NCBI GenBank assembly: GCA_002780065.1 | Contig: PEWQ01000143.1 | Location: 1 to 9,239, forward strand | Length of the DNA stretch: 9,239 bases | Direction: 5' to 3' | Source of the DNA: Candidatus Hydrogenedentes bacterium CG07_land_8_20_14_0_80_42_17 | Lineage (GTDB): Bacteria; UBA8481 | Shown here: piece after piece, positions 2,277 through 9,170 of the stretch | Layout of the letters: each line of letters opens with the position of its first letter | Numbering within the stretch: the stretch's first letter is position 1 | Notes under the pieces: generated by a model | What the model was told of the DNA's origin: nothing | Seen by the model: only the letters and a program-made list of their open reading frames with translations | Databases searched by the model: none | Position numbers and translations under genes: made by a program

Positions 2277-2549
2277 GTGGTCACAAGCAAGGATTCCGAC
2301 AAGAGCGGAATCATGTCAAAGTTACAAAGGCACGAGAAAGACACGGGTTCGCCTGAGGTTCAAGTCGCGCTTTTAACAGAACGCATAAATTCGCTCAGTT
2401 CGCATTTTGAAATACACAAGAAGGATCATCATTCACGAAGGGGACTTTTAAAGATGGTAGGCCGCAGAAGAAAGCTTCTCGATTATCTAAAGAAGACCGA
2501 CTTTGCAAAATATCAGAAGACTCTGAAGGAACTTGATCTCAGGAAATAA
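2277..2549 (+). CDS. rpsO: 30S ribosomal protein S15
   Basis: 90 residues, matching the usual 88-89. The core signatures are unmistakable: [19 protein letters not shown] at residues 19-37 and [20 protein letters not shown] followed by LLDYLKK at 47-73. S15 is a primary binder of the central domain of 16S rRNA and helps form the small-subunit platform and an intersubunit bridge. The start is a GTG at 2277 with a perfect AGGAGGT (2261-2267) about 9 nt upstream. An internal ATG at codon 13 would cut into the first helix and has no Shine-Dalgarno. The gene is followed by pnp in the same direction, the classical order. A weak start codon behind a strong ribosome binding site fits a gene under translational control. 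Confidence 0.97.
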
Positions 2550-2579: not shown

Positions 2580-2757
2580 GAGGCAGGGAATTTAATATAT
2601 TGCATAAGTCCCCGAAAAACGATAAGCGCCGCGCTCGAAATCGAATTCATCTATATCGATCTTCGTCGGCAATTTCAATCAGCACCAACCAGTGCGAAGC
2701 GCGACTCTTCTCGTTTTTTCGGGACTCAAATCAACTAACTAATTAAATTCCCTCCTC
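2580..2757 (+). promoter_or_regulatory. Large structured RNA in the rpsO-pnp intergenic region (candidate PNPase autoregulatory leader)
   Basis: Nested complementary arms define a rod about 178 nt long. Outer stem: GGGAATTTAAT (2586-2596) pairs perfectly with ATTAAATTCCC (2742-2752), and continues outward with A2585-T2753 and, past a bulged C2584, 2580-2583 with 2754-2757, for 16 bp. Middle stem: 2607-2622 (AGTCCCCGAAAAACGA) pairs with 2711-2726 (TCGTTTTTTCGGGACT) as 15 bp with one bulged base on each side. Inner stem: CGCGCT (2630-2635) pairs with AGCGCG (2698-2703). The tip can form small hairpins (ATCGA/TCGAT at 2640-2644 and 2656-2660; GCAC/GTGC at 2682-2685 and 2692-2695). In E. coli the pnp leader carries an RNase III-cleaved stem through which PNPase represses itself; position and double-stranded character suggest the same role here. 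It lacks a U-tract after the outer stem, so it is not a simple terminator. Confidence 0.6.
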
Positions 2758-2765
2758 ACTATTCA

Positions 2766-2790
2766 GGCGCAGAACTGCGCCAAAGGGAGG
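2766..2790 (+). promoter_or_regulatory. Hairpin followed by the pnp Shine-Dalgarno
   Basis: GGCGCA (2766-2771) pairs with TGCGCC (2776-2781) around the loop GAAC. The strong Shine-Dalgarno GGGAGG (2785-2790) follows 3 nt later and lies 7 nt before the ATG at 2798. A stem this close to the binding site may tune ribosome access. GGAGG (2786-2790) is also complementary to CCTCC at 2751-2755 in the preceding outer stem. Confidence 0.55.
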
Positions 2791-2797
2791 CATAGAC

Positions 2798-5137
2798 ATG
2801 CCTATTAACAAAGTGGAACGCGTCATAGACGGCGTTACTTATTCAATCGAGACCGGCCGAGTAGCCAAACAGGCTCACGGTTCAGTCACAATTCAAGCAG
2901 GCGGCACAATAGTGCTCGTTACAGCAGTGGTTTCTCCGGAGCCTAAAACTGACACGGATTTTCTACCGTTGACAGTGGATTACCGCGAACAATATTACAG
3001 CGTTGGAAAAGTTCCGGGCGGTTTTTTCAAGCGTGAGTCAAGGCCTGACGAAAGGCAAACGCTCGTTGCAAGGCTCATCGACCGTCCAATTCGTCCTCTG
3101 ATCCCCAAAGGCTTTTACAACGAAATAGTTGTCACCGCTCTAGTCATTTCAGCTGACGGAATTCATAAGCCTGATATTCTTGCAATGAACGGAGCATCCG
3201 CAGCGCTCTCACTTTCGAACGTTCCATTCAACGGTCCTATTGGCGGAGTTCGACTTGGCAAAATAGACGGAAAATTCGTAGTCAATCCATCTCAAGCTCA
3301 GCTTGCCGAAAGCGAATTGAACATAATCGTTGCGGCAACAAAATCTGCTATCTGCATGGTTGAAGCCGGAATGGAAGAGATGAGTGAAGACTCGGCGATC
3401 GAAGCTATAGAATACGGAAAAAAAGTAGCCGGCGAATTCATTTCGTTGATTGACGAATTGACGAATTCAGCCGGAAAAGAAAAATTATCCGTTCCTACGC
3501 CGAAAGAAAATGCCGAGCTCGAATCTGAAATACGTTCTCTCGCAACGGAAAAAATTAAATCTGCATCTTCTAATTCAGACAAGGTTCTGCGCCAAGCCGC
3601 AATGGAAAAAATCATTAGCGAAGTTGTTGCAGGATACAAAGAAAAACTCGGAGATGAGATTATTCCTGAAGTTAAAGCGATTCTTGAAACGATCGAAGTC
3701 GAGATTGTTAGAAGCGACATTATTGTGAAGGGCATTAGACCCGACGGCAGAAAGCTAGACGAGATCCGTCCGATCTCAATCGAAATCGCGCCTCTCCCCT
3801 GCGCTCACGGTTCTGCAATTTTTACAAGAGGACAAACTCAGGCGCTCGGAGTGACAACGCTTGGAACATCGCGGGACAGAAGGCGTAGAGACGACATCGA
3901 AAGCGAAGAAGAAGAGAGTTTTCTTTTCCATTACAACTTTCCTCCATTTTCTGTCGGAGAAGCCAAACCGATTCGAGGAACAGGCAGACGCGAAATAGGG
4001 CATGGAGCGTTAGCAGGAAGGGCTTTAGAGCCGCTATTGCCATCTGAAAAAGAATTCCCATACATGATCCGAGTAGTTTCCGACATTCTGGAATCAAACG
4101 GATCGTCATCAATGGCTTCAGTATGCGCAGGTTCTCTCTCTTTGATGGATGCAGGCGTTCCGATAAAGGCGCCGGCCGCAGGAATAGCAATGGGACTGAT
4201 TACAGATGAAAAAGGCGGAGCGGCAGTTCTGACTGATATTCAGGGTTTGGAAGATCATTTTGGCGACATGGATTTTAAGGTTGCAGGAACTCGAAATGGA
4301 ATTACATCTTTGCAGATGGACATAAAAATATCAGGGCTGACTGTTGAGCTAATGCGCCGCGCTTTAGAGCAGGCAAAAAAAGCTCGCATCGAAATTCTGG
4401 ACAAGATGGATGCAGTGCTCGCAGCTCCGAGAAAAACTCTCCCAAATAATGCTCCGCGACTGATAACAATTCAGATTCCGGAAGATAAAATCAAAGATGT
4501 TATCGGACCGGGCGGAAAAATCATCAAGAAGATTCAAGCCGAATCCGGAGCAGAGCTCGATCTCGATGATAAAGGATTATTGACAATTGCGGCATGGGAC
4601 GAGGTTTCAGGCGGTAAAGCTAAAGAAATGGTTGACGCTATAATTGCCGATCCTGAAGTCGGAACCGTGTATGAAGGCAAAGTGGCTAGGCTCATGAAGT
4701 TCGGAGCGTTTGTCGAATTTATGCCGGGGCATGACGGTTTAGTTCACATTTCTCAACTTGATATAGTGCAACCGAAAAATGTTGAAGACGTAGTTAAAGA
4801 GGGCGACACAATTAAAGTAATGGTAGTCGAGAAAGACCGCATGGGAAGATTCAATCTTTCCAGAAAATCTGTTCTTCTTTCAGAGCAAGGATTATCTCAT
4901 GAAGAAATCGTAAAGCAATTCGGATCTGATATGTCCGATCGAGGGCCAAGCCGCGGAGGTTCAGGCGGATCACGAGGCGGAAGAAGCGGCGGATTCAGCA
5001 GAGACAGAGACAGCAGAGATAGAGGCAGCAGAGACAGAGGCGGAAGAGATCGCGGTTCGCGCGGGCCAAGAGAACATTCTGATAAAGGCAGAGAAAGCCA
5101 CGGCGACAAATATTTTAAGGAAGAGGATTTGGATTAA
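2798..5137 (+). CDS. pnp: Polyribonucleotide nucleotidyltransferase (PNPase)
   Basis: A 779-residue PNPase, longer than the roughly 700-710 typical of the family because of its tail. PNPase is a trimeric 3'-5' phosphorolytic exoribonuclease that releases nucleoside diphosphates and can also add tails. Order of domains: first RNase PH domain (about 5-145; YREQYYSVGKVPGGFFKRES), helical linker (about 150-300), second RNase PH domain from GIRPDGRKLDEIRPI (312-326) to about 545, KH domain (about 553-612; VIGPGGKIIKKI at 568-579) and S1 domain (about 622-690; GTVYEGKVARLMKFGAFVEF). The active-site signatures are intact: SNGSSSMASVCAGSLSLMDA for phosphate binding (433-452) and EDHFGDMDFKVAGT (485-498), with D486 and D492 at the same numbers as in E. 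coli. Residues about 715-765 form an Arg/Gly/Asp/Ser-rich low-complexity tail with RGG and RDRGSRD repeats, ending in an acidic KEEDLD. The start at 2798 has a strong GGGAGG 7 nt upstream. Confidence 0.97.
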   Translation: MPINKVERVIDGVTYSIETGRVAKQAHGSVTIQAGGTIVLVTAVVSPEPKTDTDFLPLTVDYREQYYSVGKVPGGFFKRESRPDERQTLVARLIDRPIRPLIPKGFYNEIVVTALVISADGIHKPDILAMNGASAALSLSNVPFNGPIGGVRLGKIDGKFVVNPSQAQLAESELNIIVAATKSAICMVEAGMEEMSEDSAIEAIEYGKKVAGEFISLIDELTNSAGKEKLSVPTPKENAELESEIRSLATEKIKSASSNSDKVLRQAAMEKIISEVVAGYKEKLGDEIIPEVKAILETIEVEIVRSDIIVKGIRPDGRKLDEIRPISIEIAPLPCAHGSAIFTRGQTQALGVTTLGTSRDRRRRDDIESEEEESFLFHYNFPPFSVGEAKPIRGTGRREIGHGALAGRALEPLLPSEKEFPYMIRVVSDILESNGSSSMASVCAGSLSLMDAGVPIKAPAAGIAMGLITDEKGGAAVLTDIQGLEDHFGDMDFKVAGTRNGITSLQMDIKISGLTVELMRRALEQAKKARIEILDKMDAVLAAPRKTLPNNAPRLITIQIPEDKIKDVIGPGGKIIKKIQAESGAELDLDDKGLLTIAAWDEVSGGKAKEMVDAIIADPEVGTVYEGKVARLMKFGAFVEFMPGHDGLVHISQLDIVQPKNVEDVVKEGDTIKVMVVEKDRMGRFNLSRKSVLLSEQGLSHEEIVKQFGSDMSDRGPSRGGSGGSRGGRSGGFSRDRDSRDRGSRDRGGRDRGSRGPREHSDKGRESHGDKYFKEEDLD

Positions 5138-6821: not shown

Positions 6822-9170
6822 ATGGAAAAAAGAAATATTAAAAGGAATTCAAACAAAAGAGGCGGATGCAGACGGTTTTTGAGAATTATCGAATTCGGTT
6901 TTTACGCATCAGCATTCATCTGTGCATTGGTTTTTTCAGCTCTAGCGCTTCTCTTCTTCATATACAGTAAAGATCTGCCGTCACTTAATTCGCTCGATTT
7001 TTATTCTCCATCATCGGGAAACACCCCTGATTCCAAATGGAGTCAGGCAACCCAGATTCTTGCCAGAGACGGAAGTGTTATAGGCGAGTTTTACGAAGAA
7101 GACAGAGTCATTTTGGAAATAGAAAAGACTCCGGATGTAATGAAGAAAGCAATCATAGCTGTAGAGGATGAGCGTTTCGATAAGAATCATCCTACAGCAT
7201 GGATACGAAGATGCGGTATTGATCCAATCGGAATTATTCGAGCCTCAATTAAAAATTTTATTACTCGTAGAACAGTTCAAGGCGGCTCTACAATAACTCA
7301 ACAGCTTGCGAAAAATCTTTTTCTGACTCGTGAACGAACATTGAAACGCAAAATTCAAGAGATTATTCTCGCATATAAAATTGAAGCTAACTATACGAGG
7401 GATGAAATACTGGAGAGATATCTAAATAAAGTTTTTTTTGGAAATCATGCTTATGGAGTTGCTTCGGCCGCGTCCCGATACTACGGAATTGATCTAAGAA
7501 AATCCGGTTCAACTCTGACTCTAGGGCAGGCGGCAATGCTTGCCGGTCTTGCTAAAGCTCCGACAGCTTATGCTCCGCATAAATATCCTGACAGAGCTAA
7601 AGCTCGACAAAAAATTGTGTTGCAACGCATGGTGGATTGCGGCTACATATCTGAAAGCGATATCGATTCAGCAATCGAAGTATTTAGGAAAGATTTTGAT
7701 CCTAAAAAAGTAAATGTTCCGGAAAATGATTCTGCTACATTCGAATTGAAAGTGACTCAGGCAGGCTACTTTCTTGAATATGTAAGGCAAGAGCTTCTTA
7801 AAATTTACACTGACGATCAGATAAAGCGCGGAGGGCTCATTGTTCACACCACTCTTGACCCCAGAATGCAAACTCTTGCCGAGGCCGCAGTTTCAAGAGG
7901 TCTTCTAGAGTTGACAAAAGAAGTTAAAGCTAACCGAGTTAGTCTTGCTAAAGGGCCTCTTGAATCCGCACTACTTTGTATAAATCACAAAACCGGAGAG
8001 ATACTCGCAATGGTCGGAGGCAGTTCGTGGGGGGAAAATAATCAGTTCAACAGGGCCGTGCAAGCTAAACGGCAAGTGGGATCGGCTTTCAAGCCTTTAG
8101 TTTATTATACAGCTTTATCAGAGACTGCGACATTAGCAACGGTTATTCGAGACGAACCGATAACTATAGATGGATGGACACCACACAATTACGATGCAAG
8201 ATATCACGGGCCGGTTCTTCCACGCACTGCAATAGCTCACTCATATAATGTATCTGCGGTTCAGATGCTTTTGATTGCAGGAATTCAAAATGTTATTAAC
8301 ACTATTGGAAAAGATTTTGGAATAGATAACTCAAAGATGCAACCTTATCCTTCACTTGCTCTTGGAGCATTCGAAGTGTCTCTGCTTGAAATGACGTCGG
8401 CATACTCAGCATGGGCAAATGGAGGCATTAGATACACACCTTATCCTATCGAATTCGTTGAGGACCGGATAGGCACTAGCAAAACACCCTTTATTTCGTC
8501 AAATAACGAAATATCGAAGCCGGAAGTTTATTACCTTATGACGTCGATTCTTCAAAGTGTTGTCAGGAATGGAACTGCGGCTTCAAGTGTCGGACGTGTG
8601 ATAGGAAATATTCCTGCCGCCGGAAAAACCGGAACGACTGACGATTACGCTGACGCGTGGTTCATCGGATACACACCGACTGTGACTTGCGGAGTGTGGG
8701 TAGGCTTTGACGAGAGAAGAACAATGGGAAGAGGAATGACCGGAGGAAGAGCCGCAGGCAGAATATGGGCCAACTTTATTAAGAGCGTATTCAAAGATAC
8801 AAAGCCAGGTTCATTCCCAAATCCTTCCTTGAAAAATATTTCCAGCGTATCAATCTGCGCATTGTCCGGATTGAGGCCTTCTCCGGATTGCATCGATATT
8901 ATAACAGAACTCTTTCTGCCGGGAACTGCTCCAACTGATATTTGTTCCATTCATTCGGATCCTTCCCGACTACAGGAATTTTTGTATGGCGCTTCTGCGG
9001 CATCAGATACCGAAGTTTCGCTCTGGCCTGATCAAGTAAACATTGGCGCTCAGCAAAAGCCGCTCTCCGCTGAACGGCAGGCTCTTATGGAATTGATTGA
9101 TGCTGAGGCCGGCCCGTCTCCTGTGCGGAGAGACAGCCCGAGCATACCGATACAACATAATGCTTTTTGA
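6822..9170 (+). CDS. Class A penicillin-binding protein (PBP1A-type transglycosylase/transpeptidase)
   Basis: 782 residues. A basic N-terminus (1-22) precedes one membrane anchor (about 24-48); the rest is extracytoplasmic. The GT51 glycosyltransferase domain spans about 75-255: motif 1 AVEDERF (113-119, catalytic E115), motif 2 GGSTITQQLAKN (154-165), motif 3 KRKIQEIILAYKIE (175-188, E180), motif 4 EILERYLNKVFFG (195-207) and motif 5 AAMLAGLAKAPTAYAP (237-252). The transpeptidase domain has S421-A-F-K424, S474-Y-N476 and K602-T-G-T605. The C-terminal region carries C679, C690 and C708 in a CALSGLRPSPDC...GTAPTDIC pattern seen in many PBP1A proteins. It polymerises lipid II and crosslinks the peptides. 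Seven or eight extra residues (PTAWIRRC, 124-131) sit between H123 and the usual GIDPIG. No Shine-Dalgarno precedes the ATG, but no better in-frame start exists before the membrane anchor. Probable symbols would be mrcA or pbpA; I leave it open. Confidence 0.94.
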   Translation: MEKRNIKRNSNKRGGCRRFLRIIEFGFYASAFICALVFSALALLFFIYSKDLPSLNSLDFYSPSSGNTPDSKWSQATQILARDGSVIGEFYEEDRVILEIEKTPDVMKKAIIAVEDERFDKNHPTAWIRRCGIDPIGIIRASIKNFITRRTVQGGSTITQQLAKNLFLTRERTLKRKIQEIILAYKIEANYTRDEILERYLNKVFFGNHAYGVASAASRYYGIDLRKSGSTLTLGQAAMLAGLAKAPTAYAPHKYPDRAKARQKIVLQRMVDCGYISESDIDSAIEVFRKDFDPKKVNVPENDSATFELKVTQAGYFLEYVRQELLKIYTDDQIKRGGLIVHTTLDPRMQTLAEAAVSRGLLELTKEVKANRVSLAKGPLESALLCINHKTGEILAMVGGSSWGENNQFNRAVQAKRQVGSAFKPLVYYTALSETATLATVIRDEPITIDGWTPHNYDARYHGPVLPRTAIAHSYNVSAVQMLLIAGIQNVINTIGKDFGIDNSKMQPYPSLALGAFEVSLLEMTSAYSAWANGGIRYTPYPIEFVEDRIGTSKTPFISSNNEISKPEVYYLMTSILQSVVRNGTAASSVGRVIGNIPAAGKTGTTDDYADAWFIGYTPTVTCGVWVGFDERRTMGRGMTGGRAAGRIWANFIKSVFKDTKPGSFPNPSLKNISSVSICALSGLRPSPDCIDIITELFLPGTAPTDICSIHSDPSRLQEFLYGASAASDTEVSLWPDQVNIGAQQKPLSAERQALMELIDAEAGPSPVRRDSPSIPIQHNAF

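Follow-up and report, generated by a model that had tools for sequence, protein, structure and literature searches.

A long nested RNA structure between rpsO and pnp in a Candidatus Hydrogenedentes bacterium: a probable lineage-specific target of RNase III in the autocontrol of PNPase

Repression of polynucleotide phosphorylase (PNPase) that depends on RNase III has been described in E. coli, B. burgdorferi, S. coelicolor, S. pyogenes and C. jejuni (PMC8708148). In E. coli, where Portier and colleagues, as cited in PMC10362022 and PMC8708148, described autocontrol through the rpsO-pnp leader by RNase III and PNPase, the enzyme digests a short RNA that protects the pnp mRNA from RNase E, and other routes of repression operate too (PMC10362022). 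In Streptomyces, RNase III cuts a hairpin in the rpsO-pnp intergenic region (PMC5872136). Here we consider the equivalent gap in a 9,239-nt stretch of DNA (the window) from Candidatus Hydrogenedentes bacterium CG07_land_8_20_14_0_80_42_17. This gap probably encodes a long RNase III-type hairpin, carried within an rpsO-pnp transcript, by which PNPase would limit its own synthesis, as judged from the modelled fold and from analogy with the systems above. The features of the locus are as follows.

2277..2549, + strand: rpsO, ribosomal protein S15, GTG start (TIGR00952, E 6.5e-37, above cut-off)
2580..2596, + strand: outer stem, 5' arm, 16 bp, C2584 bulged (pairing probability 0.98-1.00)
2607..2635, + strand: middle and inner stems, 5' arm, 15 + 3 + 1 + 6 bp (25-bp chain, pairing probability 0.86-0.97)
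2636..2665, + strand: apical hairpin, 9 bp with a bulge (pairing probability 0.77-0.80)
2682..2695, + strand: apical 4-bp hairpin (pairing probability 0.99)
2698..2726, + strand: middle and inner stems, 3' arm (computed pairing)
2742..2757, + strand: outer stem, 3' arm, containing CCCTCC at 2750-2755 (pairing probability 0.98-1.00; motif from sequence)
2766..2781, + strand: 6-bp hairpin GGCGCA-GAAC-TGCGCC, between the element and the Shine-Dalgarno site (pairing probability 0.97)
2785..2790, + strand: pnp Shine-Dalgarno site GGGAGG, 7 nt before the ATG at 2798 (from sequence)
2788..2803, + strand: 6-bp hairpin AGGCAT-AGAC-ATGCCT (pairing probability about 0.95)
2798..5137, + strand: pnp, polynucleotide phosphorylase (TIGR03591, E 2.7e-287, above cut-off)

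The outer stem pairs 2580-2583 with 2754-2757 and 2585-2596 with 2742-2753, and its foot lies 40 nt before the pnp AUG. Within it, the middle stem (2607-2612 with 2721-2726 and 2614-2622 with 2711-2719; 15 bp with one mismatch, pairing probability 0.86-0.91) and the inner stem (2630-2635 with 2698-2703; 6 bp, 0.97) are linked by short runs of 3 and 1 bp, the whole forming a near-continuous chain of 25 bp. An earlier sequence-only reading had named rpsO and pnp as the neighbours, as the family matches confirm, and had placed three nested stems of 16, 15 and 6-8 bp over 178 nt (2580-2757); its positions are exact, with pairing probabilities of 0.86-1.00. Absent from its description were the two hairpins that precede pnp, at 2766-2781 and 2788-2803, the second of which covers the 3' half of the Shine-Dalgarno site together with the pnp AUG.

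The structure is real, strong and non-random. The same reading had held that arms of this length are unlikely to arise by chance and had proposed a thermodynamic fold as a check, and in both respects the calculations agree with it: positions 2578-2760 fold at -60.7 kcal/mol as against -32.8 kcal/mol for shuffled sequence (z = -7.6, none of 500 shuffles being as stable), and the longer segment 2560-2800 (241 nt) folds at -73.9 as against -48.7 kcal/mol (z = -5.9, none of 200 shuffles). The duplexes formed by the outer and the middle arms add up to -58.7 kcal/mol, the best of 1000 shuffles reaching -37.1 kcal/mol, and an inverted repeat of 12 perfect bp with a loop of 100-200 nt, comparable to the outer foot, which here encloses 145 nt, appeared in 1 of 4000 shuffles. 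Among 200-nt slices of the window, only one on the + strand is stronger than 2601-2800 (z -4.0). Of 62 co-directional gaps in the bacterium's own genome (61 drawn from 60 contigs, about 650 kb, plus the rpsO-pnp gap itself), only two have a more extreme z than the rpsO-pnp gap; one of them holds what looks like a palindromic repeat-like element, and the other was judged tRNA-like from a reading of its sequence.

When the E. coli K-12 gap was given the same treatment, the two loci proved alike in gene pair and order, in gap length (246 nt in E. coli and 248 nt here), in the z of the whole gap folded against shuffles (-5.3 in both), in having a long helix upstream of pnp and in encoding RNase III. 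They differ in the build of that helix: in E. coli 37 bp span 97 nt with the foot 56 nt before pnp, whereas here the longest near-continuous helix has 25 bp, the span is 178 nt, the pairing is divided into stems by internal loops, and no sequence similarity is recognisable. The suggestion that this would be a larger version of the E. coli element consequently holds for its span and fails for its longest helix. The Streptomyces hairpin likewise lies between rpsO and pnp, a likeness of location, but there an rpsO terminator and intergenic promoters are present (PMC5872136), neither of which was recognised here.

A scan for intrinsic terminators found no separate one on the + strand of the gap, unlike the situation in E. 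coli, which is consistent with co-transcription of rpsO and pnp. The same observation, together with the stability of the fold, would also suit a processing or stability element without autocontrol, which would protect the rpsO 3' end, there being no other + strand terminator-like hairpin after rpsO, or would separate the rpsO and pnp messages through RNase III cutting. The two explanations would look alike in sequence; what is documented for such hairpins at this position, however, is PNPase repression, in several bacteria (PMC8708148), and we regard a purely processing function as unlikely. Further upstream, at about 2184-2276 before rpsO, no Rfam S15 leader family was matched, although the same library did find the E. 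coli leader; a terminator-like stem occurs at 2212-2233 in this stretch.

The antisense strand of the element folds about as unusually as the sense strand (z = -7.05), and for this reason the strand assigned to it here is argued from gene orientation only. Unusual folding of both strands might also be taken to indicate that the gap gives rise to a small RNA of its own, be it a stable fragment of the sense strand, as the sequence-only reading had offered as an alternative, or an antisense RNA like SraG, which in E. coli occupies the same intergenic location on the opposite strand. A near-perfect palindrome gives an antisense fold automatically, however, and an Rfam scan of the window up to E 1 gave no match, including to SraG (RF00082), which the E. 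coli gap does match. Promoter-like matches around the gap number 3, where 1.9 would be expected by chance, and the promoter earlier suggested at TAATAT (2566-2571) finds no support: it is accompanied by no -35-like hexamer and was not called. The stable small RNA has no support of its own, and we think a separate small RNA of either kind decidedly improbable.

Turning to the enzymes that autocontrol would require, RNase III is encoded in the bacterium's own genome (251.9 bits, cut-off 166.25), and the two members of the phylum compared here, this bacterium and its sister genome G001, both encode RNase III and RNase Y. In neither was a match to the RNase E/G family found, the genomes being 87% and 94% complete. 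The locus accordingly combines a pnp leader placed after rpsO, in what is presumably a shared transcript, with a long, stable, near-continuous helix and an encoded RNase III. With the flanking genes confirmed and the E. coli gap alike, a lineage-specific RNase III element in the pnp leader, as the sequence-only reading had proposed, is the best-supported reading, and we would place the element, by its modelled structure and by analogy, in the known kind of system in which an RNase III target serves PNPase autocontrol.

A putative pathway can be outlined on this basis. Once rpsO and pnp were co-transcribed, the 178-nt element would fold as computed, and RNase III would cut within the 25-bp middle and inner helix, the likeliest site for this enzyme. 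The 16-bp outer stem would then keep the two ends created by the cut paired, the 3' end of the rpsO-side fragment with the 5' end of the pnp message, until PNPase, by analogy with E. coli, digested the rpsO-side fragment in the 3' to 5' direction. The freed 3' arm would then leave the pnp mRNA open to decay, which may proceed via RNase Y rather than by an RNase E route; as no RNase E/G was found in the phylum, the decay step must differ from that of E. coli. The net effect would be that high PNPase leads to lower PNPase.

The freed 3' arm may have a further consequence, since its CCCTCC (2750-2755) is complementary to the pnp Shine-Dalgarno sequence GGGAGG. As long as the leader is intact, the first two G of this site are computed to be mostly unpaired (accessibility about 0.7-0.86, from figures reported for positions 2786-2791), whereas in an RNA starting within the 3' arm their accessibility falls to about 0.1 and the GGG is paired at about 0.85. 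Pairing of the arm with this GGG is thus a computed result, and added translational repression could follow from it. The effect amounts to about 2 kcal/mol only and varies with the exact position of the cut, and the pnp start codon already lies inside the hairpin 2788-2803 in both states. The E. coli leader, under the same treatment, shows no drop in Shine-Dalgarno accessibility, and no such pairing is seen there; other leaders go either way, and a general Shine-Dalgarno switch across pnp leaders was rejected. We therefore treat covering of part of the pnp Shine-Dalgarno site by the freed arm as a possible, modest addition and not as the main claim. A stronger version, namely a two-state switch in which the CCCTCC, freed after the RNase III cut and removal of the 5' arm by PNPase, closes the Shine-Dalgarno site and couples PNPase to translation, and not to RNase E decay, in a phylum without RNase E/G, appears improbable.

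The element has no recognisable sequence homologue. The pnp genes found in a search of contigs for relatives were all distant, at about 45-53% identity and without usable alignment, and the sister locus gave no Rfam match at the gathering threshold. The sister genome has the same rpsO-pnp order, with a gap of 545 nt that is purine-rich, shares no recognisable sequence similarity with the gap studied here and cannot be aligned to it; folded whole, it behaves like shuffled sequence (z -0.89). It does contain a perfect 12-bp pair, AAAGGAAGGAGA/TCTCCTTCCTTT, enclosing 124 nt, although this pair was picked post hoc, after inspection of the sequence, from a purine-rich gap whose shuffles yielded some 12-bp pair in 41 of 4000 cases and, where a loop of 100-200 nt was required, in 13 of 4000. 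The presence of 12-bp feet in both genomes is suggestive of a shared plan, in a comparison that was itself chosen post hoc.

These comparisons bear on whether the element could instead be a mobile palindrome of MITE-like or REP-like type, decayed or solitary, that was inserted in the gap and plays no part in pnp control. Its nested inverted arms would be in keeping with such an origin; repeat-like palindromes also exist in the same genome (for example at L169 8550-8640) and seem to lie behind some of the strong pnp gaps elsewhere. A REP or MITE repeat would require several genomic copies, however, and one copy was found at E <= 0.001 in the assembly (2.39 Mb, 207 contigs, 87% complete), so that this class was rejected. 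The gap length, moreover, matches that of E. coli, and the sister gap carries a comparable arm pair of different sequence. We consider insertion of a mobile element to have only a slim probability.

Evidence from more distant phyla points, weakly, towards a role as a pnp leader. There, the folds of rpsO-pnp gaps 80 nt or longer are more stable than those of the other gaps at these loci (median z -2.4 as against -0.9), and z falls below -5 in 9 of 38 rpsO-pnp gaps as against 3 of 86 others (p 0.001); rpsO terminators, and repeat-like palindromes that can be seen in the folds, account for part of this excess. Long helices are not enriched in number in rpsO-pnp gaps across these phyla, and the long-helix count was dropped as a cross-phylum marker.

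Should PNPase autocontrol of the kind proposed operate here, structured-leader control of PNPase would extend to a barely sampled phylum in which RNase E/G was not found. The agreement in gene order and gap size between unrelated sequences would then suggest an architecture that is retained as its sequence turns over, in which event such elements would be hidden from Rfam-type searches.

Several other structures were noted in passing. In an Omnitrophota locus (L056) the pnp leader between rpsO and pnp is taken up by a near-perfect 47-bp hairpin with a span of 108 nt (z below -13), which may be a repeat-like palindrome. The palindrome at L169 8550-8640 of the bacterium's own genome (contig C101) is near-perfect, AAGGTGCCTGTCTTATAGTTATATAG.../...CTATAAGACAGGCACCTT, in a gap of z -12, and looks repeat-like. 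Within the window, the strongest 200-nt fold outlier on the + strand is 7001-7200 (z -5.35; a slightly different slice gave z -3.3), inside a PBP1A-family gene at 6822-9170, and positions 1764-1800, in a stretch with no confirmed gene, form a perfect 14-bp hairpin, AAGTTGATTTTCTC/GAGAAAATCAACTT, with a 9-nt loop.
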